Shown here: piece after piece, positions 33,977-64,000 of the stretch
Numbering within the stretch: the stretch's first letter is position 1
Layout of the letters: every line of letters starts with the position of its first letter
NCBI RefSeq assembly: GCF_002270355.1
Contig: NZ_NJFZ01000013.1
Coordinates: 1 to 64,000, forward strand
Direction: 5' to 3'
Length of the DNA: 64,000 nt
DNA from: Flectobacillus sp. BAB-3569
Lineage (GTDB): Bacteria; Bacteroidota; Bacteroidia; Cytophagales; Spirosomataceae
Notes under the pieces: generated by a model
Databases searched by the model: none
What the model was told of the DNA's origin: nothing
What the model saw: only the letters and a program-made list of their open reading frames with translations
Made by a program: the position numbers and the translations under genes

Positions 33977-35052
33977 CTAAATAGAAATATAAACTTCTCC
34001 TTTGCTTATCAGTCTTGCCGTTCGAATCACACCTGAAGATTTGATAATAACATCCTGATTATTAGTAGAATACTCTAGATTTACAGTAAATTCCCCAGAT
34101 GGATGTTCGATGGAAAAGAAAGAGCTATTTTCTGTGAAATGGGTAATGTTTTTGGTAATACTTTCAGGTAAAATACAGGCTGTAGCTACCGAAACAGCTG
34201 CCAAAACGCCAATAGCTTCGTGAACCACATGTGGAATAAACATACGTGTATGTACCACTCCCCCTTGGATAGGAGGAGCAATTAGACACATTTTAGGAAT
34301 GGTTTGTTGACTAACGTCACCGAGTTGCATTTTTTCGCCAGCTATTAGCCGAATAGTTTCAATTTTTTGTTTTAAAGACTCATTTTTTTCAAGTTCCGAG
34401 ATACTTTCATAGCCATTCAACCCAAAGTCTGAGGCTCGCATGATTACTACAGGCATTCCATTGTCTATACAAGTTGTCTCAATATCAAGAATCGTATCTA
34501 TGCTATTGCGTGTAGGCAAAAGTGCGCCGCAAGTAGCGCCAACCGTTTCTAAATAATTACAAATAATAGGTGATGAGGTTCCAAGCACACCATCAATTTT
34601 GGTATCGCCTTCATATTGAACCTGATAGCTAGGCGTTTGTACAATGACTTCGCAAATTCCTCCAGTATTCACCATATTTATCCTGGCGCTTGTGGTCGGA
34701 GAATTTGCTTTGATAATTCCAAGCTCAATCGCAAAAGGTAACACTCCCGCCAGCATATTACCACAAGTTTGGAGTGTCGAAACTTTCCCTTTCCCGATTT
34801 GAACTTGTACAAAAAATAATCTAAATCTGCCTCAGGACTTGTCGAAGGGCTTACGATGGCAATTTTACTACTCAACGAGGACCCACCCCCTAATCCATCA
34901 ATCTGCCGACTATCACCTTGCGTTGTTCCTTCAATAGCCGCAATAAGATACTGATTACGAAGGTTTTCATCTTCTGGTAAATCTTTTTTCAAGAAAAACA
35001 GCCCCTTTGAACTTCCCCCTCGAAAGTGCATATATGGAATACTTACAGTCAT
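33977..35052 (-). pseudogene. PrpF-family 4-oxalomesaconate tautomerase-like protein (GalD), frameshifted
   Basis: Two frames make one PrpF-fold isomerase of about 357 residues. The first (35052 to about 34816) has IPYMHFRGGSSKGLFFLKKDLP and DGLGGGSSLSSKIAIVSPS. The second carries the continuation QIGKGKVSTLQTCGNMLAGVLPFAIELG with the family Cys, plus GTSSPIICNYLETVGATCGALLPTRN, a second Cys segment. One extra base in the six-A run at 34811-34816 joins them seamlessly. GalD converts keto to enol 4-oxalomesaconate in gallate catabolism; the GalB- and GalC-like neighbours support this over methylaconitate isomerase. It overlaps the upstream dehydrogenase gene by 4 bases. Confidence 0.8.
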
Positions 35053-35816
35053 AATTGTAGGAGTTTTTCGAGATTATTTCTTGTGCCACGAGTAACGATT
35101 GGCTCAACTCCTTTGTCTTCCAACATCTCAATCACAGCTTCCATTTCGTGCATTCTACGCAAAGCGTGCGTGCGACTTCCTTCCACGAATCGGTCGATAA
35201 GTTCGTCATTGCCACCAATCAGCGAACTAATTTGTCCTCGGATATAGTCTTCCATACCAAAGGCTTCACCAGCTTCCACAGCTTCGCAGATAACCGCCGC
35301 TATGCCTTTGTAGACAATGGAGCGAAGCAATTTTCGAGTTGCAGCATCTCCAATGATACTATTTTCAACTAAAGAAATATTTAGAGCCAAAGGCTTTACA
35401 AATTCCAAAAACTCCGAAGCATATTCTCCCGCAGCTAGAAAAGGCGTTAAAATGCCTTTGGGAGGAACAGGCGCCATAATTGCCAAATCGATAACTTTGA
35501 TTTGAGTTGGTGCTAGAATTTTGGCAATAGCCATTTTTTTCTGTGGACCAGAAGTATTCATTTCACAAAAAAACTGATCTGGTTTTGCCACAGATGCTAT
35601 TTCTTGAGCAATTTCTAAAGACGCAGATGATAAATTAACACTAAATATCACATCCGCATAGCTCACCGCTTCTGGATTACTCGAAACTAATTGAACATTT
35701 GGATGTAATTTATATGTTGGATTCGGGTCGTATCCCCAAATTTGATGTCCTTTTTCTGCTAAATCATTGGCAAAGCGAGAGCCAGCTTCGCCTAAACCTA
35801 ATATGGCTATTTTCAT
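35049..35816 (-). CDS. NAD(P)-dependent oxidoreductase with DUF1932 C-terminus
   Basis: 255 residues. An N-terminal Rossmann domain of the 6-phosphogluconate/beta-hydroxyacid dehydrogenase type begins IAILGLGEAGSRFANDLAEKGHQIWGYDP, with the Gly-rich loop at 6-11. The substrate-proximal FCEMNTSGPQKK segment replaces the usual DxSTxxP. The C-terminal helical part with AATRKLLRSIVYKGIAAVICEAVEAGEAFGMED contains the expected catalytic-Lys helix (DUF1932). Such proteins recur in aromatic meta-cleavage clusters. Oxidation of a hydroxy- or semialdehyde intermediate is plausible, but the substrate is unknown. Overlaps the GalD-like gene, so co-translated. Confidence 0.75.
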   Translation of the reverse strand: MKIAILGLGEAGSRFANDLAEKGHQIWGYDPNPTYKLHPNVQLVSSNPEAVSYADVIFSVNLSSASLEIAQEIASVAKPDQFFCEMNTSGPQKKMAIAKILAPTQIKVIDLAIMAPVPPKGILTPFLAAGEYASEFLEFVKPLALNISLVENSIIGDAATRKLLRSIVYKGIAAVICEAVEAGEAFGMEDYIRGQISSLIGGNDELIDRFVEGSRTHALRRMHEMEAVIEMLEDKGVEPIVTRGTRNNLEKLLQL

Positions 35817-35848
35817 GACATTCTTAATTTAAAACTTCAAAATATGCC

Positions 35849-35964: not shown

Positions 35965-36582
35965 CTAATATCCAAACTTCTCATCCCAACCATAAATCTG
36001 CAAAGATGTTTTGCCTTGTCGAAGTTGTTCACGCACTCTTTCTTCCTTGGCTTCTCTGGCGATAGCTTTTTCAATAGTTTCTTCAATTTTTTCTTGAGGA
36101 ATAATCACAACGCCATCTCTATCTCCAACGACAATATCTCCTGAATTGATAAGAATATTGCCTATCATAATAGGCTCATTGAGCGTACCATCACCATAAT
36201 TAGAAGTTCCATGAATACATAAGCCACGACTAAACACTGGAAAACCCATAGCCTCAATATCGTCGGCATCGCGTACACATCCATCGATTACCAAACCATT
36301 GACTCCTTTAGTTTTAGCTCCTAAACTCATGAGATCACCCCAATAACCAGCTTCATAAAATCCTGAACAATTGGCAATTAGCACATCGCCAGCTTTTGCA
36401 TAGGCATAGGCACGATGCAAAAGCATATTGTCGCGAGGCATAGTTTGAACGGTGAACGCAGGTCCGCAGACTTTCATATTTTTCGCAATCGGCTTGATAG
36501 CAGAAGGTAAATTTCCTTTTTTGCCCAAGGCTTCATGCAAGGTAGCAGCCGAAAATTTGGCAAGTTCTTGTATTAAATCCAT
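35965..36582 (-). CDS. 4-carboxy-4-hydroxy-2-oxoadipate aldolase-like protein (GalC/LigK, RraA fold)
   Basis: 205 residues of the RraA/class II pyruvate aldolase family. GDVLIANCSGFYEAGYWGDLMSLGAKTKGVNGLVIDGCVRDADDI contains the catalytic Arg-Asp pair in the CVRDADD segment and the metal site. The C-terminal GDIVVGDRDGVVIIPQEKIEE is the family hallmark. In the gallate and protocatechuate 4,5 pathways this enzyme splits CHA to pyruvate and oxaloacetate. It is encoded 3 bases after the GalB-like gene. RraA proper is shorter and lies in other contexts, so the aldolase role is favoured. Confidence 0.85.
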   Translation of the reverse strand: MDLIQELAKFSAATLHEALGKKGNLPSAIKPIAKNMKVCGPAFTVQTMPRDNMLLHRAYAYAKAGDVLIANCSGFYEAGYWGDLMSLGAKTKGVNGLVIDGCVRDADDIEAMGFPVFSRGLCIHGTSNYGDGTLNEPIMIGNILINSGDIVVGDRDGVVIIPQEKIEETIEKAIAREAKEERVREQLRQGKTSLQIYGWDEKFGY

Positions 36583-36585: not shown

Positions 36586-37305
36586 TTAAAAAATGGTGTT
36601 TGTGACTCTTGGTACTTGACTTTGATGCGCTTCGGCAAATTGAACATTCTTTTGTCCAGAAATTCTTCTTGCATGATTTCCACGACGTGATGCTAGTTCG
36701 GCGTAGTAATCTCTGAGGTATTTTTGAGCCCCCATGCAGTCCATTGCTGCCATTTTTTTACCCATCACCGATGTAATATCAATAAAAGTATCTGGCAAAA
36801 AGCCACAAAGTTCTGGCTGATGTGGCTCAAAAGAATACCAAGCTGGCGGGTCGATATTCTTAAATGCACTTGGTACACCTGCTCCGCAAGACAACAATCG
36901 AGCACGCTGCGTAGCTTGAAATGCTAAGGGATGATCTGGATTGAAAGGGTCTTTTTCTGAATGGGCTAGGATAACAGTCGGCTCAAAATCACCGATAATA
37001 TGGGTTAATTGGGTAATTCTTTCATCTGAAATCAACATTGGATAATCGCCCCAATCTAAGAATTGAATGGGTGTTCCTAAAATATCCGCTGCTTTTTGAG
37101 CCTGTTCATGACGAATTTCTTTTACATTATCGACACTTCGTTTTGGGTTTTCTTTCCACAATTCACCCGATTCGCCTCTTTCGCCGTATGACATACAAAC
37201 AACGAGGGTTTCGGCACCTTCTTCAATGGCTTTGGCGATAGTGCCTGCTGAGCGCCAAACGAAATCCGCCGAATGAGCTCCTATGACTAATAATTTCTTG
37301 TTCAT
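36586..37305 (-). CDS. 4-oxalomesaconate hydratase-like protein (GalB, PIG-L family)
   Basis: 239 residues with the PIG-L/LmbE fold. The zinc motif appears as VIGAHSADFVWRSAG (His11, Asp14) instead of the deacetylase AHPDD; HSADFVWR is the form I recall for GalB-type hydratases. HSEKDPFNPDHP supplies the third zinc ligand region, and the C-terminal half keeps CGAGVPSAFKN and EPHQPELCGFLPDTFID. GalB adds water to enol 4-oxalomesaconate to give CHA. Immediate linkage to GalC- and GalD-like genes strongly supports this over a sugar deacetylase. Confidence 0.85.
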   Translation of the reverse strand: MNKKLLVIGAHSADFVWRSAGTIAKAIEEGAETLVVCMSYGERGESGELWKENPKRSVDNVKEIRHEQAQKAADILGTPIQFLDWGDYPMLISDERITQLTHIIGDFEPTVILAHSEKDPFNPDHPLAFQATQRARLLSCGAGVPSAFKNIDPPAWYSFEPHQPELCGFLPDTFIDITSVMGKKMAAMDCMGAQKYLRDYYAELASRRGNHARRISGQKNVQFAEAHQSQVPRVTNTIF

Positions 37306-37379: not shown

Positions 37380-38333
37380 CTACAGGTCTTCTGGCATGGG
37401 TGTACCTCTTGTATGAAAGCTATCGACGGTTTTGAGACCCCAAGCTTGCCCTTTCGAACGTTCCTCTCGATTCCAGACAACAGTCTCATAATCAGGGTCT
37501 AAAATGAGTCTTGCTGTAGGATTAGCTATTTCGATTCTATTACCTCCTGGTTCGTACACATATAAGAAAAATGTTTGCTGAATAGCGTGTTTATGTGGAC
37601 CCGTTTCAATAAAAATACCATTTTCTAAAGCTATATCTGCTGCCAAAAGAACCTCTTCACGGCTGTTTACAGCGTAAGTCAAATGATGAAAACGGCCCGA
37701 TAAGCCCGACTGATCCTCGGTAATGGCAAGGTCATAGGATTTGGAATTTACCGAAACCCAAACACCCTTAGGTTTTTCATCAAAAACAATGGTTTCGGTC
37801 ATGCGACCGCCTAAAACCTTGAACTGGAAATCACTAAAAGCTACAATATCTTTGGCTAGTAAATTGAGGTGATCTATTCGCCTTACATTCATACCTCTTC
37901 CAGGGAATTTACTAGCAGTATTCTTAAGGGCTGATTTGTGTTGCTCGTCAGGTTGGTATTTACGGGTGTCAAAATAAATTTCTGCCATATGTCCATCGGG
38001 ATAGCGGAACATAAAAGTATCGCCATAGCCACATTCGCCCTCGTGCCAGCGAATACCCAGATTTGCTTGCTGTATTGCTTTTACGCGTCTATCGAGAGCC
38101 GATTGACTGCGAGCACGCCAAGCAAAATGCCCAATACCTGCATGACGATGCGCTCGAAGCTTGAGGGTATAATGCTCATAATCGTCATACGCACGCAAAT
38201 AGGCGCAATCTTCATGGGTTTCGACAAGCATCATTCCAAGGATTTCCGTGAAAAATCTGATACTCTCATCGAGCTTTGGTGTAAGTAATTCGACATGAGC
38301 CAAATGTGCCAATTCCCAAGTAATATCTTCCAT
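37380..38333 (-). CDS. VOC-type extradiol ring-cleavage dioxygenase (catechol 2,3-dioxygenase family)
   Basis: 317 residues with two vicinal-oxygen-chelate modules (about 8-125 and 160-275). The C-terminal module keeps all three Fe(II) ligands of type I extradiol enzymes: His in RRIDHLNLL, His in RFHHLTYAV, Glu in GNRIEIANP. The tail ETVVWNREERSKGQAWG resembles the lid of homoprotocatechuate 2,3-dioxygenase. As first gene of an operon with GalB/C/D-like enzymes it is the likely ring-opening enzyme, although classical gallate and protocatechuate 4,5-dioxygenases are of the unrelated LigB fold. Substrate therefore uncertain: gallate, a methylgallate or another trihydroxybenzoate. Confidence 0.88.
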   Translation of the reverse strand: MEDITWELAHLAHVELLTPKLDESIRFFTEILGMMLVETHEDCAYLRAYDDYEHYTLKLRAHRHAGIGHFAWRARSQSALDRRVKAIQQANLGIRWHEGECGYGDTFMFRYPDGHMAEIYFDTRKYQPDEQHKSALKNTASKFPGRGMNVRRIDHLNLLAKDIVAFSDFQFKVLGGRMTETIVFDEKPKGVWVSVNSKSYDLAITEDQSGLSGRFHHLTYAVNSREEVLLAADIALENGIFIETGPHKHAIQQTFFLYVYEPGGNRIEIANPTARLILDPDYETVVWNREERSKGQAWGLKTVDSFHTRGTPMPEDL

Positions 38334-38434
38334 AACGAGTAGTTTTGTGTTGTTTAAAACGTATTACAAAATTAGGCTCATGCGAAGGTTTTATTAGGAG
38401 ACTTTTTGTACTTTTAAGGATAAAATTCGAACAT

Positions 38435-39319
38435 ATGTCAATGGATTTACTCAAAGAAATTACCAATTTTGATGGACTTTATGGGGATGAAAATGGCAAA
38501 TATTCCTCTGAATATTTGTTTTTAGAACCTATCTCAACCAGAAGTAAAGAATTTGATTGGCAAATCAAACCACATATACATTTAAAACTTTTCCAAGTTT
38601 TTGTAGTAAAAAAGGGATCACTTCGCTTTACAGATGCTATTTCTGAATACGAATTAAATGCACCTTGTTTGATGGTGATTCCTGCCATGGCATTACATGG
38701 ACTGGTGTATCATCCAGATATAGAAGGGAGTATTTTGACTTTGTCGGAAAAAATTATTGAAGATATTTTTGAAACATCACACCGTATTTGGCAGACCTTC
38801 GAAAAAGTAAGAATTATACAGTCATTTGATGAAAATGGTACTTTCGAAAAAATGCTTTATCAATTAGCATTGGCAGAGTACGAATTATTTAGTGAAAATC
38901 CAGAAAGAATGATGATGATTAAAGCTTGTTTGACCCAGTTTTTCTTGCATATTCATCGATTGGCTACACAAGACGCTGACCTTTCTGGAGATTCCTTACA
39001 AATGGCTTATTTTAGAAAGTTTTTACAAAATATCAAAAAGTCTTCGCACCAAAAAAGTATCCCTGATTTTGCGGAAGACTTAAACATTTCTGCCGTTCAT
39101 TTGAATCGAATTTGTAAAGCTATCGCAGGCAAATCAGCCATAGAGTTGGTGCACCAACATTTGATTCAAGAAGCCCAAAAGTATTTGTTACATACGTCTT
39201 ATTCTATTTCGGAAATTGCCTATTTACTGGAATTTGAGTACCCAAATTATTTTGCCAAACTCTTCAAAAAGCATATTGGTTTATCTCCCGCCGAATATCG
39301 ACAAGTGGATAGGAGGTAG
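38435..39319 (+). CDS. AraC family regulator, PobR/PcaR-like type
   Basis: 294 residues from ATG at 38435; this start aligns with the paralogue at 48885 (ITNFDGLYGDENG versus INYSGLYGDAQRR). The open frame upstream from 38345 has no other sign of coding. An N-terminal cupin (about 25-110, WQIKPHIHLKLFQVFVVKKGSLRF, CLMVIPAMALHGLVY) should bind an aromatic effector. The C-terminal double helix-turn-helix (IPDFAEDLNISAVHLNRICKAIAGKSAIELV and YSISEIAYLLEFEYPNYFAKLFKKHIGLSPAEYR) binds DNA. Divergent from the VOC dioxygenase operon across 101 bases, which it probably activates. Confidence 0.9.
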   Translation: MSMDLLKEITNFDGLYGDENGKYSSEYLFLEPISTRSKEFDWQIKPHIHLKLFQVFVVKKGSLRFTDAISEYELNAPCLMVIPAMALHGLVYHPDIEGSILTLSEKIIEDIFETSHRIWQTFEKVRIIQSFDENGTFEKMLYQLALAEYELFSENPERMMMIKACLTQFFLHIHRLATQDADLSGDSLQMAYFRKFLQNIKKSSHQKSIPDFAEDLNISAVHLNRICKAIAGKSAIELVHQHLIQEAQKYLLHTSYSISEIAYLLEFEYPNYFAKLFKKHIGLSPAEYRQVDRR

Positions 39320-39370: not shown

Positions 39371-40194
39371 ATGTTTTATCAAGTATTTTCTCCCCAACCA
39401 GCTTTGCGAGAATTTGTGAATAATATCATGATTTTTCGGCTTGATATGCCTGCCATAGGTAAAAATCCTACGGTGGTACTGCCTCCATTGGGGGAGCAAT
39501 GCCTCTACTTTTATCCGCTAGAATCCCCTATGAGTGAGTATCTGGACAAGGAGAAAATGATTAAACTATCACCGAGTATTTTGGTTGGGCCACAGGTGAA
39601 TCGAGTTAAGTTGACGATGCCTTTTCATAGTTATACCGTCAAAGTCGGATTTCAACCTGGAGGGTTATACAGAATTTTAGGTATTCCGATGAATGAAATG
39701 GTGATGGACGAATCGTTGGATAGTGTTTATTTTCTAGATAAAGAAATCCAATTTATCAATGAGCAACTTTGTGAGTTATCGAACCCAACTGATATTTTAC
39801 AACTGGTCGAAGGGTTTCTACTCAAAAAAGCCCAGCAACTTAGACCAGTTTTGCCTGTAGATAAGGTACTTTCGCTAGTTCATCAAAAAGGAGGTTTGAT
39901 GAAAGTTGAAGATATTGCTGAAAATGCCTGTGTTAGTACTCGCCAGTTAGAGCGGTTATTCCAACAAAGAATTGGTTTGCAACCTCGTTTTTTACTCGAA
40001 TTACTCGTTTTGCCAAAGCTTGGCGTATAAAAGAAAGCAATCCTCAAATCAAGTGGACTACTATTGCATACGATTGTGGTTATTTTGACCAAATGCACTT
40101 AATTCGGGATTTTAAGACATTTTGTGGTAGTTCTCCTTCGGTGATGGAAGATGAAATTAAAGCCTCTTCCTTTACTTTGGGAGGTCAGTTGTAG
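39371..40194 (+). pseudogene. AraC family regulator, frameshifted in the DNA-binding domain
   Basis: The first frame (39371-40030) holds an N-terminal domain of the DUF6597 type (FSPQPALREFVNNIMIF, SPSILVGPQVNRVKL, VKVGFQPGGLYRILGIP) and the first helix-turn-helix (KVEDIAENACVSTRQLERLFQQRIGLQP). One extra base in the six-T run at 39988-39993 restores the canonical continuation FTRITRFAKAWRIK, TTIAYDCGYFDQMHLIRDFKTFCGSSPS to a stop at 40192-40194. So about 274 residues in all. Target unknown; its direction and position suggest the next gene (40276) or itself. Confidence 0.85.
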
Positions 40195-40275: not shown

Positions 40276-40782
40276 ATGAAATATCTACTTTTTATCTTGG
40301 CAACATGGGGATTTTCAACATTTACTTGTCTGGCACAAAATCAAGAACAAGACAAAGCGGTTATTGAAGGACAGATAGATTTATTTTTTAAAGATTGGGA
40401 AAACCACAACTTCGAGAATATGGTCAATTATGCTACCGAAGATTCGGATTGGGTCAATGTAGTAGGTATGTGGTGGAAAAATCGGAAGGAGGTGATTTAT
40501 GCGCATAATGTCTTTCACAAGGTTATGTTCAAAAATACTAAACTCACCAAAACATCTGTTCATACTAGATTCATTACCAAGGATGTAGCGGTAGTTCGAT
40601 TGTATTGGCACATGGGAGAATATACAACGCCAAGTGGCAATCATCATGACGAAGCTGAAAATATTGCGATGATGGTATTTGTAAAAAAAGCAGAAAAATG
40701 GCTTTTGACGGCTACTGAAAATTTGGTCATAGAAGAAGCTGCACAGAAAAGTAATCCCGTCAATCGAATGTCCAAAGAATAA
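40276..40782 (+). CDS. Exported SnoaL-like/DUF4440 protein
   Basis: 168 residues with a signal peptide (about 1-20, TCLAQ) and one NTF2-like cone: IEGQIDLFFKDWENHNFENMVNYATEDSDWVNVVGMWWKNRKEVIYAH, later FITKDVAVVRLYW and MMVFVKKAEKWLLTATEN. Members of this SgcJ/DUF4440 group bind small hydrophobic ligands or act as cyclases or isomerases; no catalytic set is recognisable. It lies between the regulators and the pca operon and is closed by the hairpin at 40797-40832. Confidence 0.8.
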   Translation: MKYLLFILATWGFSTFTCLAQNQEQDKAVIEGQIDLFFKDWENHNFENMVNYATEDSDWVNVVGMWWKNRKEVIYAHNVFHKVMFKNTKLTKTSVHTRFITKDVAVVRLYWHMGEYTTPSGNHHDEAENIAMMVFVKKAEKWLLTATENLVIEEAAQKSNPVNRMSKE

Positions 40783-40848: not shown

Positions 40849-42168
40849 CTATTGAATGAAATGAGCAGCCATTTCATGTGCAAAACCAATAGAATTTTCT
40901 GGAGAAAATAACTCCTGAATATGTGCTTCTGAAAGAAATGACCTGATTTTGGCATTTTCTAAAGCTAATTCTTTCAAATGTTTTCCTTTAGCCGTCGCTT
41001 CCTGACAGAGTTCTTCTACCATTTCATGAGCTTCACTTTTACCTAAAGTTTCAGCCAAAGCAAAAGAGAGATTTTCGGCATAAATCAATCCTTGCGTTAT
41101 TTCTAAATTTTCTAACATTTTGTCAGAATTGACTTCTAATCCATTGCTCAAGATGCTCATTTGTCGCACACTTCCAGCGGTCAATTGTACCACTTGTGCC
41201 AGTGTTTCCCATTCGGCATGCCATGTGCCAGTCGCTCGCTCGTGGTCTTGTATTTGAGCACTCAGCAGTGTTGAAATCAAATTAGGAACACGCTGTGCAT
41301 TGGCTAAAATAGCAATAGAAGAAACAGGGTTGCGCTTATGTGGCATCGTCGACGAGCCGCCTTTTCCTTTGCCTGCTGGCTCAAATACTTCGGCTATTTC
41401 AGTTTGCATCAATAGACTAATATCTTTGGCGATTTTTCCTAAACTCCCCGAAAGCATACCAAGTGTTGTGGCTATTTCTACCACAAAATCCCGCTGCGTA
41501 TGCCATGAAATGGGATGGTATTCGAGCCCCATATTGGTTGCCATACGCTGTGCAATGGCTAACCCTTTTTGAGGCATACTAGCTAAAGTTCCGACTGCAC
41601 CACCCAATTGAAGATAGTATTTCAAAGACTCCAATCGCTGTTTTGCTCTTTGAAGACTATCTATCCAAATGGCTACTTTATAATCAAAACTAATAGGGCG
41701 AGCTTGTTGCATAAAAGAGCGACCTATCAAAAAAGTATCTTGATGTGCTAAGGCCAAAACCCTTAATTGCTCTATACTTTGGGTCAACAAAGGAAGCATC
41801 AAATGAATGGCGTCTTTGCACTGCAACATCATGGCAGTATCAATCACATCTTGACTGGTAGCACCAAAATGGACGAACTTTGATGCATCTGCGCTTTCTG
41901 CTTTGACGACTGATGTTAACTGTTTGACCAAAGGAATAGCGATATTTCCACCCAGACCTACCTGTGCCTTTAGTTGAGGAATATCTATTTTATCAACCTT
42001 ACAACAATGCGCTATAACTTCAGCAAACTGACTAGGAATAAACGTACATTCTGCTTGAGATTTTGCTAAATGAGCCTCAAAATCAAGGAGATACTGAATG
42101 CTTTTTTCAGCAGTATATAGTTCACTTATTCTTTTGTCGTAAAATAAGGTTTGAAATAAATCATTCAT
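40849..42168 (-). CDS. pcaB: 3-carboxy-cis,cis-muconate cycloisomerase
   Basis: 439 residues of the fumarase/adenylosuccinate lyase superfamily. It has the family signature GGSSTMPHKRNPV in the centre and the first conserved region VHFGATSQDVIDTAMML. PcaB turns 3-carboxymuconate, the product of PcaHG, into 4-carboxymuconolactone. The C-terminal CMLE-specific part (NSIGFAHEMAAHFIQ) and the pca context separate it from adenylosuccinate lyase. It is the last gene of the pcaIJ-pcaF-pcaB run (22-base gap to pcaF). Confidence 0.92.
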   Translation of the reverse strand: MNDLFQTLFYDKRISELYTAEKSIQYLLDFEAHLAKSQAECTFIPSQFAEVIAHCCKVDKIDIPQLKAQVGLGGNIAIPLVKQLTSVVKAESADASKFVHFGATSQDVIDTAMMLQCKDAIHLMLPLLTQSIEQLRVLALAHQDTFLIGRSFMQQARPISFDYKVAIWIDSLQRAKQRLESLKYYLQLGGAVGTLASMPQKGLAIAQRMATNMGLEYHPISWHTQRDFVVEIATTLGMLSGSLGKIAKDISLLMQTEIAEVFEPAGKGKGGSSTMPHKRNPVSSIAILANAQRVPNLISTLLSAQIQDHERATGTWHAEWETLAQVVQLTAGSVRQMSILSNGLEVNSDKMLENLEITQGLIYAENLSFALAETLGKSEAHEMVEELCQEATAKGKHLKELALENAKIRSFLSEAHIQELFSPENSIGFAHEMAAHFIQ

Positions 42169-49775: not shown

Positions 49776-49853
49776 TGAATATAGTTTTACATTTGAGATG
49801 ATACAGCAGAATGATTGATTTTACCTAAAAAATATTTTGATAAACTTCGTATT

Positions 49854-55530: not shown

Positions 55531-55663
55531 CATCTTAAGACGTAACCCTGATTAAATACTATTTTGAACGATTACCTAACCCTTGAAAAGTATATCACAT
55601 AAGGTAATTCTTGAGCCAAAAAAGCTTAACTATCACAGCAACAACAAGAGATTCTTATAATTG

Positions 55664-56449
55664 ATGAAGGTAACAAAATCAGTCCCTGAAACCTTACAGA
55701 TACGTGAGGAAGGTGATATTCTATTGGTAGGGCTTAATCGTCCAGATAAACGCAATGCGTTTAATGATGAACTTATTTTGGGCATTGAAACGGTTTTCGA
55801 AAATATTCCTTCTCATATTCGTTGTGCCATTATTTATGGAATTGGCAAGCATTTTTCGGCTGGCTTAGACTTATCTGAGCTTAAGGAGCGGGATGCGGTA
55901 CAAGGTATTTTTCATTCAAGAATGTGGCATCGAGTACTCGAAAAAGTACAATATGGTGCTGTTCCTGTGGTGGCAGTATTGCACGGTGCTGTAGTTGGTG
56001 GTGGCTTAGAGTTGGCAGCAGCTTGTCATATTCGGGTGGCTGAGAAAAGCACTTTTTATGCCTTACCCGAAGGTCAACGAGGAATATTTGTGGGTGGTGG
56101 CGCTGCTGTTCGATTACCAAAATTAATCGGTATGGCACGTATGGCTGATATGATGCTGACAGGGCGTGTGTATCAAGCCGAAGAAGGCGAGCGAATAGGA
56201 CTAGCACAATACTTAGTCGAGGACGGACAAGGTTTAGAAAAAGGGAAAGAATTAGCTCAGAAAATAGCCTCCAACGCAGGAATGACCAATTATGCTCTTA
56301 CCCACGTGCTTCCAAGAATAGTAGATAGCGGTCAAACAGAAGGGCTTTTGTTGGAAAGTATGATGGCTGCCATTGCTCAAAGTGCCCCCGAAGCCAAACA
56401 GAGATTAAAAGACTTTTTGGAAGGACGAGCCAAAAAAGTGGGAGAATAA
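55664..56449 (+). CDS. Crotonase/enoyl-CoA hydratase family protein
   Basis: 261 residues from ATG at 55664, preceded by a TTG that is less likely. Crotonase fold: LNRPDKRNAFNDELI, the oxyanion segments GKHFSAGLDLSEL and LHGAVVGGGLELAAACHIRVAEKSTFYALPEGQRGIFVGGGAAVRLPKLIG with one catalytic Glu in PEGQRG. In the beta-oxidative hydroxycinnamate route (CouM) it hydrates the side-chain double bond of coumaroyl-CoA. A feruloyl-CoA hydratase-lyase (Fcs/Ech route giving the aldehyde) is the alternative, but the SDR and beta-ketoacyl-CoA hydrolase genes argue for the hydratase. Confidence 0.87.
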   Translation: MKVTKSVPETLQIREEGDILLVGLNRPDKRNAFNDELILGIETVFENIPSHIRCAIIYGIGKHFSAGLDLSELKERDAVQGIFHSRMWHRVLEKVQYGAVPVVAVLHGAVVGGGLELAAACHIRVAEKSTFYALPEGQRGIFVGGGAAVRLPKLIGMARMADMMLTGRVYQAEEGERIGLAQYLVEDGQGLEKGKELAQKIASNAGMTNYALTHVLPRIVDSGQTEGLLLESMMAAIAQSAPEAKQRLKDFLEGRAKKVGE

Positions 56450-56544: not shown

Positions 56545-58344
56545 ATGGAGTTCAAGAATGTAGCTTTTGGCCCCACCCAAACCATCAAGACTTACAATCC
56601 TGATGAGAGTATTTTATTTCGGTTAAATAGCGAATTAAAACCTTTTCCTAAAACTATTACTGATAGACTTTTGGAGTGGTCGCTTCGACAGCCTGAAAAG
56701 ACTTTTATTGCCCAACGTAACCAAGAGGGTATTTGGCAAGAACTAAGCTATGCAGACACCTATCAGCAAATGTGTTCAATAGCACAGCATCTGTTGAATA
56801 TGGGTTTTGAGAAAAATGATACAGTAGTTATTCTCTCCGAAAACAGCCTTGAGCACGCACTTTTGGCATTGGCATCGGTGCATGTAGGCATTCCGTATTC
56901 ACCAATTTCGCCTGCGTATTCTTTGGTATCGGAAGATTTTTCTAAACTTCGTCATTGTTTAGAAAAAATGACACCAAAACTGGTTTTTGTACAGTCTGAA
57001 CAAGTTTTTGAAAGAGCTATTCGATTTATTGAAAATACCTTTCCTGAGATTGAGATATTGGTATCACAGGGTGAAAAATTTCCTAATATATCCTCTTGGC
57101 GACACTCAACTATTACTGAGGCAGTGGAGCAAGCTCACCAAAAGGTGACGGGTGATACTGTTGCGAAAATACTATTTACTTCTGGTTCGACGGGTTTACC
57201 CAAAGGTGTTACTAATACCCAACAAATGTGGTGTGCTAATCTCCAACAGATTACACAGAGTTTTCCTTTTATGCAGAAACAAGCCCCTGTTTTTATTGAT
57301 TGGCTTCCGTGGAACCATACTTTTGGCGGTAATCACAATTTTGGCTTGGCGCTTCATAATGGCGGTACACTCTATATAGACGACGGAAAACCTAGCACTA
57401 AAGGCATTGAAGAAACGGTAAAGAATCTTCGAGAAATATCTCCTACGGCTTATTTTAATGTTCCAAAGGGATTTGAAATGTTAATTCCCTATCTGGAAAA
57501 GGAAGAGTCATTGAGAAATACTTTTTTCAAAAATCTTCAAATTATATTTTATGCTGGCGCTAGTTTGGCACAACCTATCTGGAATAAGTTGGAAGAACTC
57601 GCTATTCGGACTATCGGTGTAAAAGTGCCTATTATAACAGGTTTAGGTTGTACAGAATCAGGTCCTTCGGCTCTTTTTGCGAATTGGGGAGGTGCTTTTT
57701 CGGGCTTGTTAGGCGTGCCAGTAGCAGGGCTAGAGGTAAAATTAGTGCCTTTGGGAGATAAGTCTGAGGCTAGATATAGAGGTGCCAATGTGACAAAAGG
57801 ATACTGGCGAAATCCAGAGGCAACGGTACAAGCTTTTGATGAAGAAGGTTTTTATAAAACAGGTGATGCTGTAAAGTTTTTGGACGAAAATAATCCTGAT
57901 AAAGGATTGATTTTTGACGGCAGAATTGCCGAAGATTTTAAACTTTCAACGGGTACATGGGTCAACGTGGGCGTGATGAAAACCAAAATCATTTCCTCTG
58001 GATCACCTATTATTCAAGATGTGGTTATTGCAGGGCTCGACCAAGACTATATTGGTCTAATACTTTTTCTCAATACCGATGCCTGTTGTCAGTTGACTGG
58101 GCACACAACTGCTGTTTGTACATCCGAATTGTATGGACATTCATCGATAACAACATTTATAGAATCTTGGATGAAAGAATTTAACACTCACGCCACAGGT
58201 AGTTCGACTAGTATTGGCAAAGTGATTATTGCCCACGAACCTCCATCGATTGACAAAGGTGAGATAACAGACAAAGGTTCGCTCAACCAACGTGCTGTTT
58301 TGGCAAATCGGCAAGATTTGGTACATCAGTTATTTCATAGTTAG
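56545..58344 (+). CDS. Feruloyl/coumaroyl-CoA synthetase, AMP-forming
   Basis: 599 residues of the ANL superfamily. The AMP-binding P-loop is ILFTSGSTGLPKGV (about 208-221). The A5-type GLGCTESGPSALFANWG, the segment GFYKTGDAVKF and the Asp-containing LIFDGRIAEDFKLSTGTWVNVG mark the hinge. The substitution pattern and length (about 600, VTKGYWRNPEATVQAF) fit the feruloyl-CoA synthase subfamily rather than acetyl-CoA or long-chain types. It activates p-coumarate, caffeate or ferulate to the CoA thioester, the entry step. It follows the crotonase gene by 95 bases. Confidence 0.9.
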   Translation: MEFKNVAFGPTQTIKTYNPDESILFRLNSELKPFPKTITDRLLEWSLRQPEKTFIAQRNQEGIWQELSYADTYQQMCSIAQHLLNMGFEKNDTVVILSENSLEHALLALASVHVGIPYSPISPAYSLVSEDFSKLRHCLEKMTPKLVFVQSEQVFERAIRFIENTFPEIEILVSQGEKFPNISSWRHSTITEAVEQAHQKVTGDTVAKILFTSGSTGLPKGVTNTQQMWCANLQQITQSFPFMQKQAPVFIDWLPWNHTFGGNHNFGLALHNGGTLYIDDGKPSTKGIEETVKNLREISPTAYFNVPKGFEMLIPYLEKEESLRNTFFKNLQIIFYAGASLAQPIWNKLEELAIRTIGVKVPIITGLGCTESGPSALFANWGGAFSGLLGVPVAGLEVKLVPLGDKSEARYRGANVTKGYWRNPEATVQAFDEEGFYKTGDAVKFLDENNPDKGLIFDGRIAEDFKLSTGTWVNVGVMKTKIISSGSPIIQDVVIAGLDQDYIGLILFLNTDACCQLTGHTTAVCTSELYGHSSITTFIESWMKEFNTHATGSSTSIGKVIIAHEPPSIDKGEITDKGSLNQRAVLANRQDLVHQLFHS

Positions 58345-58598: not shown

Positions 58599-59366
58599 AT
58601 GAATATAGAATCAAACATATTTCTCATTTCTGGTGGCGCCTCTGGGTTGGGGTTGGCCACGGCACAAAACATTGTTTCGCAAGGCGGAAAAGTTATTTTA
58701 TTAGACATAAATGAACAAGCTGGGCAACTTGCACAAGTAAGTTTAGGCGATTCTGCGCTTTTTTGTAAAACTGATATTGTGGATGAAACGCAGGTGTCAC
58801 AAGCGATTGAACAAGCCCTTTCTCATTTTGGAAAAATCAACGGCGTCATCAATTGTGCGGGAATTGGACCCGCCAAAAGAGTTGTGGGTAAAGATGGTCC
58901 ACACGATTTAGGCTTTTTCCAGAAAGTCATTCAAGTCAATTTGGTTGGGGTATTCAATGTACTTCGTTTGGGGGCAAATGTCATGCAGCACAATACGCCC
59001 AACGGACAAGGCGAAAGAGGTATTGTGATTAATACCGCTTCGGTCGCGGCCTTTGATGGACAAATCGGACAGGCGGCATATTCAGCTTCTAAAGGTGGGG
59101 TGGTAGCGATGACGCTACCTATCGCTCGTGAATTTGCCCGTATGGGTATACGAGTGATGACGATTGCTCCAGGAATTTTTGAAACACCTCTACTGGCAAA
59201 TTTGTCTAGCGAAGCACAAGCTTCTTTAGCGCAACAAATTCCTTTTCCTCCAAGACTTGGAAAACCTGAAGAATTTGCGAAATTGGTACAACAAATCATT
59301 GAAAATACCATGCTCAATGGCGAGGTAATCCGCTTGGATGGTGCTATTAGAATGGGAATAAAATAA
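58599..59366 (+). CDS. Short-chain dehydrogenase, 3-hydroxyacyl-CoA dehydrogenase-like
   Basis: 255 residues. The NAD motif is [12 protein letters not shown] (about 11-22), then NCAGIGPA, the catalytic Ser in [14 protein letters not shown], and Tyr/Lys in YSASKGG. The C-terminus [37 protein letters not shown] is the HSD17B10 (type II 3-hydroxyacyl-CoA dehydrogenase) pattern. In the cou-type route the CouN step oxidises the 3-hydroxy-3-arylpropionyl-CoA to the keto form. It lies 16 bases before the esterase-DUF3237 gene. Confidence 0.88.
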
Positions 59367-59382: not shown

Positions 59383-60720
59383 ATGAAAAAAATAGTTACC
59401 TGTATCTTAGGTCTAATACTCGGATATACAGCTCATGCACAAGAAGTTATCCGATTGTACGAAGGTAAAGCCCCAGGTTCAGAAAGCTGGACTTGGCAAG
59501 AATCAGTGTTAACCAATGCTAATTGGGGTGGTCGAACTGCCTATAATATTGTTGATCCAACGATTACAGCCTATTTACCAAATCCAAGCAAAGCAAATGG
59601 AACAGCCATAGTCGTTGCGCCGGGAGGAGCTTTTCATACTTTGTCGATGGATAATGAAGGAGTTGATGTAGCCAAATGGTTGAATGAAAGAGGTATTGCG
59701 GCATTCGTCTTGAAATACCGAGTAGCACGCTCTTTTACAGAAAATCCTATCACCGAGTTGATGGGTAAAATGAGTAATATGAAGGCGCTCGACCAAGAAA
59801 ATGCGGCTGTAATTCCTTTGGCTACACAAGATGGACGTAAGGCAATTCAGTATATTCGTCAGAATGCAGAGAAATTTCATATCAATCCAAGCAAAGTTGG
59901 CATGATGGGATTCTCGGCAGGAGGAACATTAACCATGTCGGTAGTTTATACAGCCAATGATGCTGAAAGACCCAATTTTGTTGCCCCAATTTATGCCTAC
60001 GAAAAAGCTATTTTAGGTAATAAAGTTCCAACTCAACCGACGCCAATTTTTGTGGCAGCCGCTTCGGATGACCAACTAGGTTTTACCTTGCATAGTTCTT
60101 CTATTTACAGCAAATGGACGAAAGCCAAACAACCAGCCGAGTTACATATTTACGAAAAAGGGGGACATGGATTCGGTATGAGTAAGAAAAATATTCCTAC
60201 CGATACATGGATAGAACGCTTTGGAGATTGGCTACAATTACATGGCTTGACAACTCCCGAACCGCCAGCGCCAGGCTTAGCTTTTTTCTGTGAAATAAAA
60301 GTATTACTAAGCGAAGCCCTCACAGTAGGTCAGACACCACATGGACTACGACGCATTATCCCAATTGTAGGAGGTACTTTCGAAGGCCCAAGTATCAAAG
60401 GACAGGTATTGTCGGGTGGTGCCGATTGGCAAATTGTGAGAAGCGATGGCGTAGCAGAATTAGATGCAAATTACCAAATCAAAACAGATGATGGGGTTAT
60501 TATTTATGTAAAAAATAATGGATTGAGAGTGGCCTCTCCTGAAATCGCAGCCAAAATTGCCAAAGGCGAGAATGTAGATCCTTCACAATATTATTTTAGA
60601 ACGATTCCGACACTAGAAGCACCCAAAGGAAGATATGAATGGGTAAATAATAGTTTATTTTTATGTAAAGGAATCCGTAAACCCGATCATGTATTGATTC
60701 AAATTTGGGCGGTGAAATAG
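59383..60720 (+). CDS. Exported alpha/beta-hydrolase esterase fused to a DUF3237 domain
   Basis: 445 residues. Signal peptide about 1-19 (LGYTAHAQ). The hydrolase part is about 20-285, with the oxyanion region VVAPGGAFHTLSMDNEG, nucleophile elbow GMMGFSAGGTLT, an Asp region AASDDQLGFT and the catalytic His in YEKGGHGFGMS, close to acetyl-xylan or feruloyl esterases of the BD-FAE type. The rest (about 296-445) is a DUF3237 barrel: FFCEIKVLLSEALTVGQTPHGLRRIIPIVGGTFEGPSIKGQVLSGGADWQIVRSDGVAELDANYQIKTDDG and YFRTIPTLEAPKGRYEWVNNSLFLCKG. DUF3237 proteins are usually separate and often lie in aromatic catabolism clusters. The fusion predicts that DUF3237 works on the released product or helps bind it. 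Confidence 0.85.
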   Translation: MKKIVTCILGLILGYTAHAQEVIRLYEGKAPGSESWTWQESVLTNANWGGRTAYNIVDPTITAYLPNPSKANGTAIVVAPGGAFHTLSMDNEGVDVAKWLNERGIAAFVLKYRVARSFTENPITELMGKMSNMKALDQENAAVIPLATQDGRKAIQYIRQNAEKFHINPSKVGMMGFSAGGTLTMSVVYTANDAERPNFVAPIYAYEKAILGNKVPTQPTPIFVAAASDDQLGFTLHSSSIYSKWTKAKQPAELHIYEKGGHGFGMSKKNIPTDTWIERFGDWLQLHGLTTPEPPAPGLAFFCEIKVLLSEALTVGQTPHGLRRIIPIVGGTFEGPSIKGQVLSGGADWQIVRSDGVAELDANYQIKTDDGVIIYVKNNGLRVASPEIAAKIAKGENVDPSQYYFRTIPTLEAPKGRYEWVNNSLFLCKGIRKPDHVLIQIWAVK

Positions 60721-60840: not shown

Positions 60841-61869
60841 ATGAAAAGAATTCTTTTACTCTTCTTTACTTGTCTGTGTTTCAGGCAGGCAAATGCACAA
60901 AGTATTCAGGGGAAAGTTGAAAGCTTTGTGATTAATGCTAAAACTTTACAAAATACAGGTGGAGAAAACCCTAATCGTAAAATCTCGGTATATCTTCCTC
61001 CGAATTACGAAAGCACACAAAAAAGATTTCCCGTGGTGTACTATTTACATGGCTTCATGGGTAATGATAGTATCACAACAGGCATGAAAGCGATTTTGGA
61101 TAAGAGTATTGCTCAAGCCAAAATCCGCCCTTTTATTTTGGTTATTGCCAGTCAATATACCCTTTTTGATGGCAGTTTTTATAGTAATTCAGCCCTGACA
61201 GGAAACTGGTCTGAATTTGAAGCTAAAGAATTGGTTACCAATATCGACCGCAAATACAGAACCCTTGCCAACCGCAATAGCAGAGGTATTGGCGGACATT
61301 CGATGGGAGGTTACGGAGCTATCAAAATCGGAATGTTGTACCCAGAAGTATTTAGTTCTGTATACGCCATGAGTCCAGGGTTATTGATGATGGTCAAAGA
61401 ATTTGGTGCTAATAGCGATTCATTTAAGGAACTCTCGAAAATAAAAACAGTCGAAGAATTACGAAAAACCTATTATCCTAAAGTATTGGTCGCTGTGGGA
61501 CGAGCATGGTCTCCCAATTCAGCCAACCCACCTTTTTATTGTGATATGCCTTTTACCTATCAAGGCGACAGTCTGCAAGTAAATCAGGCAGTGGTAGACA
61601 AATGGAATGCTAATTTTCCTGTATTGATGGCAGATAAATACGCGGATAATCTTCGTAAACTCAAAGCTATCAAATTGGATTGGGGAAGAAACGACGCCCA
61701 GCGCTTTCCGATTCAGTGCGGAGCTTTTAGTCAAAAGTTGGAAAACCTTGGTGTTGAGCATTTTGCAGAAGAGTATATTGGAAATCATGTGAACAAAATT
61801 TGGACAAATGATGGTAGAGTTTTGAATGACTTGCTTCCATTTTTTAATGATTATCTGGTTTTTGAATAA
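60841..61869 (+). CDS. Exported esterase, esterase D/feruloyl esterase-like (CE1 fold)
   Basis: 342 residues, signal peptide about 1-19 (CFRQANAQ). RKISVYLPPNYESTQKRFPVVYYLHGFMGNDSIT, the nucleophile elbow GIGGHSMGGYGAIKIGMLYPEVFSSVYAMSPGLL, and the catalytic His in EYIGNHVNKIWTND match the S-formylglutathione hydrolase/feruloyl esterase type of CE1. With the neighbouring CoA-ligation genes, release of hydroxycinnamates from plant cell-wall esters is the likely task; an endogenous ester or tributyrin activity is not excluded. Confidence 0.84.
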   Translation: MKRILLLFFTCLCFRQANAQSIQGKVESFVINAKTLQNTGGENPNRKISVYLPPNYESTQKRFPVVYYLHGFMGNDSITTGMKAILDKSIAQAKIRPFILVIASQYTLFDGSFYSNSALTGNWSEFEAKELVTNIDRKYRTLANRNSRGIGGHSMGGYGAIKIGMLYPEVFSSVYAMSPGLLMMVKEFGANSDSFKELSKIKTVEELRKTYYPKVLVAVGRAWSPNSANPPFYCDMPFTYQGDSLQVNQAVVDKWNANFPVLMADKYADNLRKLKAIKLDWGRNDAQRFPIQCGAFSQKLENLGVEHFAEEYIGNHVNKIWTNDGRVLNDLLPFFNDYLVFE

Positions 61870-61886: not shown

Positions 61887-63182
61887 ATGCTCGCACTATT
61901 AGGATTTTCGACCATTGCTATTTTCTTATTTTTAATCATTACCAAACGTCTTTCTGTGATTACTGCTTTGGTAATCGTACCGCTTTTGGCAGGGATTATT
62001 GCAGGATTTTCTCCAAAGGAATTAGGAGAAATGATGCTTGCAGGCATGAAGCAAGTAGCACCAACAGGCATATTGTTAACCTTTGCGGTACTGTATTTTG
62101 CCACGATGCTCGATGCTGGACTTTTTGACCCAGTAGTCGCTTTTATCATCAAGTATGTAAAAGGCGATCCGCTCAAAGTTATTCTCGGAACAGCCATATT
62201 GACCATGATTGTGCATCTAGATGGCGATGGTACCGCCACTTTTATGATTGTGCTTTCGGCTTTTTTACCTATTTACAAACAGTTAAAAATCAATCGCTTA
62301 ATATTGCCTTGTATTGTTGCGTTGAGTGTGGGGCCGATGCATCTTGTACCTTGGTCTGGCACTTCGGCACGAGCTATTTCTACACTCAAATCGGATGCAG
62401 TACATATTTTCAACCCTAATATTCCTGCAATATTAGCAGGGCTAGCATGGGTTTTATTTGTGGCATATTTTCTAGGAATGAAGGAAAGAAAACGATTAGG
62501 AGTAGTAGATTTTGCCTATAATCATCAGGAAAATTTAACTGAAAATGAAAGAAGTTTACGTCGCCCAAAACTCATTATCCTCAATGCTATCTTGACGATT
62601 AGTTTAATTGTGATACTCATCAAAGGGCTCATTCCTGCGCCTGTGTTGTTTCTACTGGCAAGTATGTTGGCGCTGTTAATCAACTACCCTAGACTGAACG
62701 ACCAACAAAAAGTATTGCGTGGTCACGGTATGAATATTTTTCTGGTATCGAGTATGATATTTGTGGCGGGAATCTTTTCTGGAATTCTTACAGGTACAAA
62801 AATGATTGATGCTATGGCCAACGAATTGGTATCTTTGATTCCTCAGCATCATGCCAATCTTTTGCCTTTACTTACAGCGATTACAAGTTTGCCTGCAAGT
62901 ATTCTCTTCACGCCAGATGCCTACTACTTTGGTGTAGTGCCTATTTTGAGTCAAACTGCAACACAATTTCACTTAGATTCATTAGAAATAGGGCGCGCTG
63001 CTTTGCTTGGACAAATGACGGTTGGTTTTCCGATAAGTCCATTGACAGCATCTACTTTTTTATTGATTGGTTTGACAGAAGTAGATTTGGGAGAACATCA
63101 AAAGTTTACCTTCAAATGGGCTTGGGGTACTACTCTTGTGATGACGATTATGGCTTTATTGACAGGTTCGATACATATTTAG
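61887..63182 (+). CDS. CitMHS family citrate/metal-citrate type transporter
   Basis: 431 residues with about 11-12 membrane helices. MLALLGFSTIAIFLFLIITKRLSVITALVIVPLLAGIIAGFSP, GILLTFAVLYFATMLDAGLFDPVV and the paired hydrophilic loops VHLDGDGTATFMIVLSAFLPIYKQLKI and FTPDAYYFGVVPILSQT are the conserved CitMHS signatures. Members exchange or import di- and tricarboxylates, often as metal chelates. It is 17 bases after the esterase gene and 3 bases before the AtuA-like gene, so the substrate is probably an acid handled by the latter. Confidence 0.9.
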   Translation: MLALLGFSTIAIFLFLIITKRLSVITALVIVPLLAGIIAGFSPKELGEMMLAGMKQVAPTGILLTFAVLYFATMLDAGLFDPVVAFIIKYVKGDPLKVILGTAILTMIVHLDGDGTATFMIVLSAFLPIYKQLKINRLILPCIVALSVGPMHLVPWSGTSARAISTLKSDAVHIFNPNIPAILAGLAWVLFVAYFLGMKERKRLGVVDFAYNHQENLTENERSLRRPKLIILNAILTISLIVILIKGLIPAPVLFLLASMLALLINYPRLNDQQKVLRGHGMNIFLVSSMIFVAGIFSGILTGTKMIDAMANELVSLIPQHHANLLPLLTAITSLPASILFTPDAYYFGVVPILSQTATQFHLDSLEIGRAALLGQMTVGFPISPLTASTFLLIGLTEVDLGEHQKFTFKWAWGTTLVMTIMALLTGSIHI

Positions 63183-63185
63183 CAA

Positions 63186-64000
63186 ATGAAAAAAGATAAA
63201 ATAAGAATAGGATGCGGAGCAGGTTTTTCTGGTGATCGGATTGAGCCAGCGCTTGTATTGGCCGAGCAAGGCGAATTGGATTATCTTGTGCTAGAATGTC
63301 TGGCCGAAAGAACGATAGCTTTAGCTCAAAAAAGAAAATTACAAGATGCTTCCAAAGGTTACGACCCGCATTTAGAGAAGCGAATCAAATCATTATTGCC
63401 ATTATTAGTAAAAAATCAAATAAAGCTTATTACTAATATGGGAGCGGCAAACCCATTGGCAGCCGCCCACAAAGTCATTGAGATAGCCAAAGAATTGAAT
63501 TTACCCATCAAAGTAGCAGCCGTGACAGGAGATGATGCAACACAATGGGTAAGAAATAGCTCAACCCATTTTACCATTTTGGAAAATGGTCAAGCATTAA
63601 ACGACTATGAAGTGATTTCTATCAATGCCTATATGGGTGTTGAAGGAATTTTGGAGGCATTAACGGCTGATGCACAAGTTATTATTACAGGAAGAGTGTC
63701 TGATCCTTCATTGTTTTTAGCACCCATGATTCATGAATTTGACTGGCAAATGGATGATTATGATTTGTTGGGAAAAGGCACCGTGATTGGACACTTACTC
63801 GAATGTGCAGGACATATTACTGGAGGGTATTTTGCTGAACCCATCATGAAACCAATAGAAGGACTGGCAACTTTGGGACACCCTTTTGCCGATATTTATG
63901 CCGATGGTTCTGCTATTATTAGTAAAGTAAAGGGCACTGGAGGTAAAATTACGCTGCAAACTACCAAAGAACAGCTTTTGTACGAGGTCATCAACCCACA
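63186..64000 (+). CDS. AtuA-like (DUF1446) family protein, C-terminus beyond the window
   Basis: Open frame from ATG at 63186 (MKKDKIRIGCGAGFSGDRIEPALVLAEQGELDYLVLECLAERTIALAQ) to the window end, 271 residues without a stop. This N-terminal sequence, IKLITNMGAANPLAAAHKVIEIAKEL, and VIITGRVSDPSLFLAPMIHEFDW are characteristic of the AtuA/DUF1446 family named from acyclic terpene utilisation. The biochemical role is unknown. It follows the CitMHS transporter by 3 bases, so the two are probably one unit. An unseen DUF4387 partner often follows in related clusters. Confidence 0.85.
   Translation, partial: MKKDKIRIGCGAGFSGDRIEPALVLAEQGELDYLVLECLAERTIALAQKRKLQDASKGYDPHLEKRIKSLLPLLVKNQIKLITNMGAANPLAAAHKVIEIAKELNLPIKVAAVTGDDATQWVRNSSTHFTILENGQALNDYEVISINAYMGVEGILEALTADAQVIITGRVSDPSLFLAPMIHEFDWQMDDYDLLGKGTVIGHLLECAGHITGGYFAEPIMKPIEGLATLGHPFADIYADGSAIISKVKGTGGKITLQTTKEQLLYEVINP

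Follow-up and report, generated by a model that had tools for sequence, protein, structure and literature searches.

The stretch of DNA analysed here (the window) covers bases 1–64000 of contig 16 in the 6.62-Mb draft genome of Flectobacillus sp. BAB-3569, which consists of 183 contigs. Its right half holds an island of predicted genes for the catabolism of plant phenolics (Table 1). A cou-like arm on the + strand (49.8–60.7 kb) is divergent from pobA and the beta-ketoadipate genes on the - strand (40.8–48.7 kb). Further to the left, and also on the - strand, lies a block which, counted from a divergent AraC regulator gene, encodes a VOC-family dioxygenase, a PIG-L hydratase, an aldolase, a DUF1932 dehydrogenase and a tautomerase; together with the regulator it spans 34.0–39.3 kb. 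The island probably brings together two catabolic modules that are independent of each other and serve the use of phenolic esters from plants, one taking hydroxycinnamates into the beta-ketoadipate pathway and the other acting on gallate.

Table 1. Predicted genes of the island from left to right, with position, strand and the principal match
Feature	Position	Strand	Match
4-Oxalomesaconate (OMA) tautomerase, GalD/LigU-like, frame broken	33977..35052 (pieces 34678-35052, 33977-34756)	-	NCBIfam OMA_tautomer
6PGDH-like dehydrogenase with DUF1932	35049..35816	-	PF09130, PF03446
CHA (4-carboxy-4-hydroxy-2-oxoadipate) aldolase, GalC counterpart	35965..36582	-	NF006731 200.8 > 179 bits; narrower ligK_PcmE 187 < 304.5
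PIG-L-family 4-oxalomesaconate hydratase, GalB-like	36586..37305	-	PDB 5cgz "4-oxalmesaconate hydratase" E 1e-65, residues 3-237 of 239
VOC-family (type I) extradiol ring-cleavage dioxygenase	37380..38333	-	phmmer 9wgj, 7q2a, 3lm4, HPCD
AraC regulator, divergent from VOC operon	38345..39319	+	PF12833
Short AraC-type protein, DUF6597 and partial HTH	39371..40030	+	HTH_AraC 22 bits < cut-off 26.6
SnoaL/DUF4440-like protein, signal-like N-terminus	40276..40782	+	PF14534 22.5 bits < cut-off 25.2
pcaB, 3-carboxy-cis,cis-muconate cycloisomerase	40849..42168	-	TIGR02426 381 > 355.75 bits; NF006554 543 < 595
pcaF, 3-oxoadipyl-CoA thiolase	42191..43399	-	TIGR02430 636 > 597 bits
Fused pcaI-pcaJ type CoA-transferase	43396..44742	-	TIGR02429 and TIGR02428, both > cut-off
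pcaG, protocatechuate 3,4-dioxygenase alpha	45026..45589	-	TIGR02423 222.7 > 126.25 bits
pcaH, protocatechuate 3,4-dioxygenase beta	45586..46284	-	TIGR02422 359.7 > 296.4 bits
pcaD-pcaC fusion	46309..47481	-	NF051488 413.9 > 390 bits
pobA, 4-hydroxybenzoate 3-monooxygenase	47501..48679	-	NF006091 562 > 351 bits (subfamily); equivalog TIGR02360 496 < 538.7
AraC regulator, divergent from pobA	48885..49775	+	PF12833
AraC regulator, first gene of cou arm	49815..50762	+	PF12833
MetE-like protein, recurrent cassette member	50927..52033	+	NF005085 459.7 > 313 bits; PDB 1ypx 3.5e-104
Tannase/feruloyl-esterase-like alpha/beta hydrolase	52082..53203	+	PF07519 29.5 bits, marginally < 29.8
CouO/HpeF-family aryl-beta-ketoacyl-CoA hydrolase (amidohydrolase), predicted	53220..54092	+	alignment, context, tree
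Aromatic acid MFS importer, frame broken	54180..55471	+	TIGR00895 244.6 bits for open C part; whole-protein cut-off 418.55
Enoyl-CoA hydratase (crotonase), CouH-like	55661..56449	+	NF006013 396.5 > 232 bits
Aryl-CoA synthetase, CouL-like	56545..58344	+	NF009232 731 bits, cut-off 777
SDR, putative 3-hydroxyacyl-CoA dehydrogenase	58599..59366	+	50% to Rhizobium Q54 dehydrogenase
Esterase fused to DUF3237	59383..60720	+	PF20434, PF11578
Feruloyl-esterase-like alpha/beta hydrolase	60841..61869	+	PF00756
Citrate-type (CitMHS) transporter	61887..63182	+	TIGR00784 510.8 > 259.7 bits
AtuA-family protein	63186..64000, continuing to 64532	+	PF07287 486.9 bits

An initial annotation had described 33977–64000 as one hydroxycinnamate system. 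The cou and pob-pca arm of this description held; the island as a whole is not a single such system, since its left end (33977–38333) corresponds to a separate, putative gallate/oxalomesaconate module that had gone unlisted. The amidohydrolase, crotonase, CoA synthetase, SDR, three esterases, pobA, pcaHG, pcaD-C, pcaB, CoA-transferase and thiolase were all found where they had been placed. The four AraC regulators counted (38345, 39371, 48885 and 49815) were confirmed as well; the one at 39371 is short and below the model cut-off. The esterases at 52082, 59383 and 60841, described as exported, are alpha/beta-hydrolases whose signal-like N-termini, judged by eye and not by a predictor, are consistent with export. 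Overall, the observation was partly confirmed and the interpretation partly supported.

Two reading frames are broken in this genome. The importer had been taken for one open reading frame (ORF); 54180 is a plausible start, but this frame ends after approximately 80 codons, with 29 stops up to 55471, and the remainder (54431–55471, from profile position 84 onward) lies in another frame. The two tautomerase pieces scored 335 and 85 bits with the OMA_tautomer model against 66 and 53 bits with prpF, neither piece alone reaching the cut-off of 440. The open-frame tautomerases of three family relatives exceeded this cut-off (473, 465 and 468 bits), as did that of Agrobacterium vitis. In the sister genomes G001 and G002 both genes are single open frames, of 431 residues between stops for the importer and 361 residues for the tautomerase. 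Because the two frames are broken here, both modules may be impaired in this strain. An island that is decaying or inactive is nevertheless unlikely, if not negligibly so: the breaks are not shared by G001 and G002, as decay would have it, but the other catabolic genes are listed as open and the breaks could be errors of the 183-contig draft. They may reflect draft errors or real decay, two causes that the data do not separate.

A Putative Gallate Module with a VOC-Family Dioxygenase

The protein encoded at 37380 contains two VOC stretches (a two-domain protein). It was aligned with 29 other loci of the host family and with sequences from Agrobacterium, Thermus and Roseomonas. H155, H217 and E268 were kept in 33/33 sequences and fall on the metal-site positions of homoprotocatechuate dioxygenase (HPCD) in the alignment; we take them to be the 2-His-1-Glu metal ligands. 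A tyrosine (Y200) was present in all 33 at the position of an HPCD histidine that is presumably catalytic. Y200 is also found in PDB 9wgj, the closest structure, labelled catechol 1,2-dioxygenase (sequence match only), and, should the VOC protein act on gallate, would mark changed chemistry. A single-sequence structure prediction was unusable (pLDDT 32). The label catechol 2,3-dioxygenase (TIGR03211) is doubtful, as the window protein (297.5 bits), three family relatives (298, 302 and 301) and A. vitis (302) all fall below the curated cut-off of 320.2 bits.

Cleavage of gallate gives 4-oxalomesaconate directly. The VOC-family enzyme would open gallate to this product, which the tautomerase, the GalB-like hydratase and the CHA aldolase would turn into pyruvate and oxaloacetate. 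The aldolase was not over the TIGR02798 cut-off. Stretches around the module were fetched for 21 of the 31 family genomes described below, and their neighbouring ORFs were only partly typed. A match to the AraC regulator at 38345 was labelled beside the module in 17/21 loci. The DUF1932 dehydrogenase is likewise a regular member (labelled in 16/21), and the block in Thermus contains a match to it at 43% identity.

A survey of 200 sampled genomes of the host family was made with thresholds of E <= 1e-40 for the VOC dioxygenase, 1e-60 for tannase and 1e-100 for CouO. The VOC probe matched in 45 genomes; setting aside 14 with only a 31–37% identical paralogue left 31, with identities of at least 68% (one sequence, 81% identical, is a fragment where a contig ends). 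The GalB-like hydratase was found in exactly the same 31/200 genomes, always on one contig with the VOC gene and separated from it by 14–2409 bases. In a class-wide sample of 295 genomes, both occurred in the same two, one of them the window's own. The bacterial tannase probe, which matches PDB 6yq4 (1e-135), detected 16/200 family genomes, 14 of them within the 31 VOC genomes (2.5 expected, p 2e-11, relatedness ignored). Inside the fetched stretches, tannase was present in 8/21, a carboxylesterase in 9/21 and either in 15/21. The TanB-type tannase of the present genome lies on another contig (contig 22, ~170088–171548; L243 5085–6614), near an esterase, with a second amidohydrolase at a distance of ~11 kb; of the 31 ORFs with at least 150 aa listed for two overlapping stretches around this tannase, 9 were typed. 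The paralogues, 31–37% identical to the window copy, constitute a second VOC dioxygenase family spread among several genomes of the host family.

The window copy is the only VOC match in its genome at E <= 1e-40. A search of the genome for a GalA/DesB-type dioxygenase of the LigB superfamily gave a single LigB match, a 295-aa frame on another contig which by eye we take to resemble DODA/YgiD; the control for this search was positive in 4/14 genomes. A LigA search, negative in the 200 genomes, was dropped as proof of GalA absence as no control was positive. In the available text of a 2014 database paper, gallate dioxygenases are placed in the LigB superfamily, and the VOC substrates mentioned do not include gallate (PMC4250580). 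No report of a VOC-type gallate dioxygenase was found in the literature among the matches listed. On this evidence we infer a pathway for gallate whose ring cleavage falls to a type I (VOC) enzyme in place of the LigB-type gallate dioxygenase. On balance we lean towards the view that the VOC protein, a member of the type I extradiol superfamily without relationship to GalA/DesB, cleaves gallate, and that it defines an independently evolved pathway from tannin to the tricarboxylic acid (TCA) cycle which occurs in Bacteroidota and, judging from gene context, also in Agrobacterium.

Alternatively, the VOC block could provide another route for protocatechuate (4,5-cleavage), supplied with substrate through the cou and pob genes. 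It adjoins pob-pca in the window, and in Thermus oshimai VOC, GalB-like, aldolase and DUF1932-type genes stand beside pobA. However, 4,5-cleavage of protocatechuate gives an aldehyde that requires two more enzymes than gallate cleavage, a LigC-type dehydrogenase and the LigI lactonase, and neither is labelled in the window module. Tannase co-occurs with the VOC gene, and 8/31 VOC genomes are without CouO at the survey threshold, all of which makes this branch quite improbable and leaves gallate as the favoured substrate.

The Proposed Hydroxycinnamate Arm and the Beta-Ketoadipate Genes

The hydrolase at 53220 aligned over its full length with nine relatives (49–95% identity). H13, H15, H156, H198 and D250 were invariant, and we take these to be the amidohydrolase metal-ligand positions. 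A Rhizobium Q54 plasmid protein, 59% identical, bears the submitted label 4-hydroxyphenyl-beta-ketoacyl-CoA hydrolase, which is the CouO reaction. It belongs to a cou-like cluster whose other members match the crotonase (52%), the ligase (42%, feruloyl-CoA synthase) and the SDR (50%, dehydrogenase) of the island; a MarR regulator and an acyl-CoA dehydrogenase are encoded there too. Other relatives, from Pseudomonas putida (73%, the closest plasmid relative) and Rhizobium leguminosarum (61%), are accompanied by genes for biotin carboxylase and acetoacetate-CoA-ligase-like proteins, in clusters that resemble the published hpe cluster. HpeF, the last hpe enzyme, shares 95% identity with the R. 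jostii CouO (PMC9618137). Both the cou-like and the hpe-like contexts would yield an aryl-beta-ketopropionyl-CoA and thus give independent support to the predicted substrate class of the hydrolase.

We propose the following route, in which the substrates and all the catalytic steps are predicted from homology, gene order and co-occurrence. An exported esterase would free p-coumarate or caffeate, which would be taken up and converted to the CoA thioester by the ligase. The crotonase would hydrate this thioester and the SDR oxidise the product, and the CouO-family hydrolase would cleave the resulting beta-ketoacyl-CoA, releasing acetyl-CoA together with either 4-hydroxybenzoate or protocatechuate. 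Hydroxylation of 4-hydroxybenzoate by PobA would follow, and PcaHG-B-DC-IJ-F would carry protocatechuate to succinyl-CoA and acetyl-CoA. The beta-ketoadipate set is complete, at least one model being over its curated cut-off for every pob-pca step.

The esterase at 52082 showed invariant Ser122, Asp306 and His341 in 8/8 sequences, probably its catalytic triad. Its structure was predicted with a pLDDT of 75, and a fold search returned only general alpha/beta hydrolases at low TM-scores; for this reason its substrate is a prediction, and we regard it as a putative hydroxycinnamoyl esterase. It was not filed as a tannase, its PF07519 score being just below the cut-off.

Removal of the side chain by a hydratase-lyase, giving hydroxybenzaldehydes for an aldehyde dehydrogenase, would use the same ligase and a crotonase, but is very unlikely. 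With the hydratase-lyase model PRK09120, whose control exceeded the cut-off in 1/14 genomes, the best match in the whole genome reached 130.5 bits and the island crotonase 78 bits, for a cut-off of 276; that no hydratase-lyase passed speaks against an aldehyde route. The crotonase passes another family, PRK08150, and retains glutamates at positions 117 and 137, presumably catalytic, and the CouO gene lies alongside. The aldehyde-free, Cou-like route put forward in the initial annotation is supported. Least probable of all is a role of the CouO homologue in 4-hydroxyacetophenone (Hpe) catabolism rather than in that of hydroxycinnamates, as its closest plasmid relative sits in an hpe-like cluster but no biotin carboxylase or kinase was seen among the typed island genes, and a hydratase and a ligase lie near CouO in 13/13 relatives.

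The encoded steps of the proposed path from esters to the TCA cycle suit p-coumarate and caffeate; the importer frame is broken, and the path for ferulate is unsupported. No VanA_C match was obtained in the genome, so that ferulate may halt at vanillate, barring another demethylase. In the family, 10/200 genomes had a VanA_C match; CouO is also present in 7 of these 10, with strong VanA_C matches in 5. No CouR-like MarR regulator was found in the island, whose typed regulators are of AraC type; since regulation is not catalysis, this lowers only strict membership of the Cou pathway.

Distribution of the Two Modules

CouO was detected in 50/200 family genomes. Its neighbourhood was examined in 13 relatives selected for a strong CouO match (at least 81% identity) from 58 first-sampled relatives: 12 from the host family and one from another family of the same order, some of the stretches stopping at contig ends. 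Hydratase, ligase and a tannase-like esterase were each present in 13/13, an MFS gene in 12/13 (five at 35–40% identity), a MetE-like gene in 10, the SDR, pcaH and pobA in 8 and the VOC block in 2. When public genomes were scanned, 585 CouO loci were confirmed, the best 80 of which comprised 12 from Bacteroidota and 68 from Pseudomonadota. The Bacteroidota loci carried hydratase and ligase (11), tannase-like esterase (8), MetE-like gene (8) and SDR (7). The corresponding numbers in Pseudomonadota were 63 for the ligase, 59 for the hydratase, 44 for the SDR, 5 for the MetE-like gene and 0 for the esterase, a few of the ligase and SDR matches being weak (22–31% identity). The tannase-like esterase looks like a Bacteroidota addition to the arm.

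A CouO tree was built from 97 rows (100 extracted, less three duplicates of named contigs). The 23 Bacteroidota rows formed one side of a branch (100/97; 0/500 shuffles as low). Given the distribution of CouO, the content of its loci and the tree, the Cou arm counts as an established lineage trait. The initial annotation had regarded so complete a set as better known from actinobacteria and proteobacteria than from Bacteroidota; within the family the set is not exceptional, since a quarter of the genomes (50/200) have CouO, although no literature report of the CouO pathway in the phylum was found among the matches listed.

CouO and the VOC gene co-occur in 23/200 genomes (7.75 expected). They share a contig in only 7 and are neighbours only in the window genome, G001 and G002, so that the modules can be separated and were brought together in this genus.

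The MetE-like gene recurring beside CouO is of the PRK06520 family. A role of its product as a ferulate O-demethylase was considered and not retained: only co-occurrence and the missing VanA match speak for it, and LigM-type demethylases were not searched for.

Several points weigh against two working modules of the proposed function. The stretches fetched for 5/13 CouO-selected relatives showed no SDR, and those of three actinobacterial plasmid relatives of the hydrolase (49–58%) showed no hydratase and no strong ligase match. The CouO-annotated relative takes its name from a submitted label only, and the comparison sequences include no CouO or GalA of tested function. For the gallate module, 2/16 tannase genomes are without the VOC gene, and in Thermus the VOC block adjoins pobA, not tannase. 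The VOC orthologues were split from their paralogues post hoc, with the hits already known, and the co-occurrence p-values count related genomes as independent. To these are added the broken importer and tautomerase frames, unless the draft has errors there.

Neighbouring Genes

On the left, the island is preceded by a polysaccharide-type region (21493–33789) with a SusC/SusD-like pair and FecR, sigma factor, heparinase-like, GH88-like and sulfatase genes, which resembles a sulfated polysaccharide utilization locus. The gene at 7831–8952 encodes a protein that combines a Fic/DOC domain with DUF4172 and weakly matches a DeoR-like helix-turn-helix. The right edge corresponds to the AtuA gene, which ends at ~64532, slightly beyond the window; a glutathione peroxidase-like gene and then a MarR-type frame (~65.4 kb) were recognized by eye further on. 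The group formed by the last esterase, the CitMHS transporter and the AtuA-family gene (60841–64532) stays together in G001, G002 and G022, and perhaps serves the uptake of an acid freed along with the phenolic.

Comparison with Known Systems

Aerobic hydroxycinnamate catabolism by Cou/CouO-type genes appears to recur in a family of Bacteroidota, a phylum mostly known for polysaccharides. The VOC family is labelled catechol 2,3-dioxygenase or VOC protein in public records, yet it travels with gallate genes. If its members are gallate dioxygenases, these labels have to be corrected, and there is a second enzymatic way of breaking down tannins.

In the Cou pathway of Rhodococcus jostii RHA1, CoA thioesterification is followed by beta-oxidative removal of the side chain, with CouO of the amidohydrolase superfamily acting last to give the aromatic acid (PMC4737184). 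The island would share the route logic and the CouO-type final step with RHA1 and its relatives. It differs by AraC instead of MarR regulators, by the tannase-like esterase and the MetE-like gene, and by a CouO that belongs to the separate Bacteroidota group. The Hpe pathway of Rhodococcus rhodochrous GD02 uses the CouO homologue HpeF (PMC9618137), and relatives of the island hydrolase do occur in hpe-like clusters; unlike that pathway, the island shows no carboxylase or kinase among its typed genes, and its beta-ketoacyl-CoA would derive from a cinnamoyl-CoA. Compared with the classical beta-ketoadipate pathway, pcaD-pcaC and pcaI-pcaJ are fused and every step is otherwise matched.

Of the well-known gal pathway of Pseudomonas putida, the gallate module has counterparts of GalB and GalC and, in a broken frame, a probable counterpart of GalD, whereas its dioxygenase is of the VOC type. 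A similar arrangement is a block of the Agrobacterium vitis plasmid pAvCG78b, in which PIG-L, VOC, aldolase, tautomerase and carboxylesterase genes stand in a row, the VOC proteins being 54% identical. The A. vitis block differs in that a LysR regulator and genes of an ABC transporter lie close by, and the two are far diverged.

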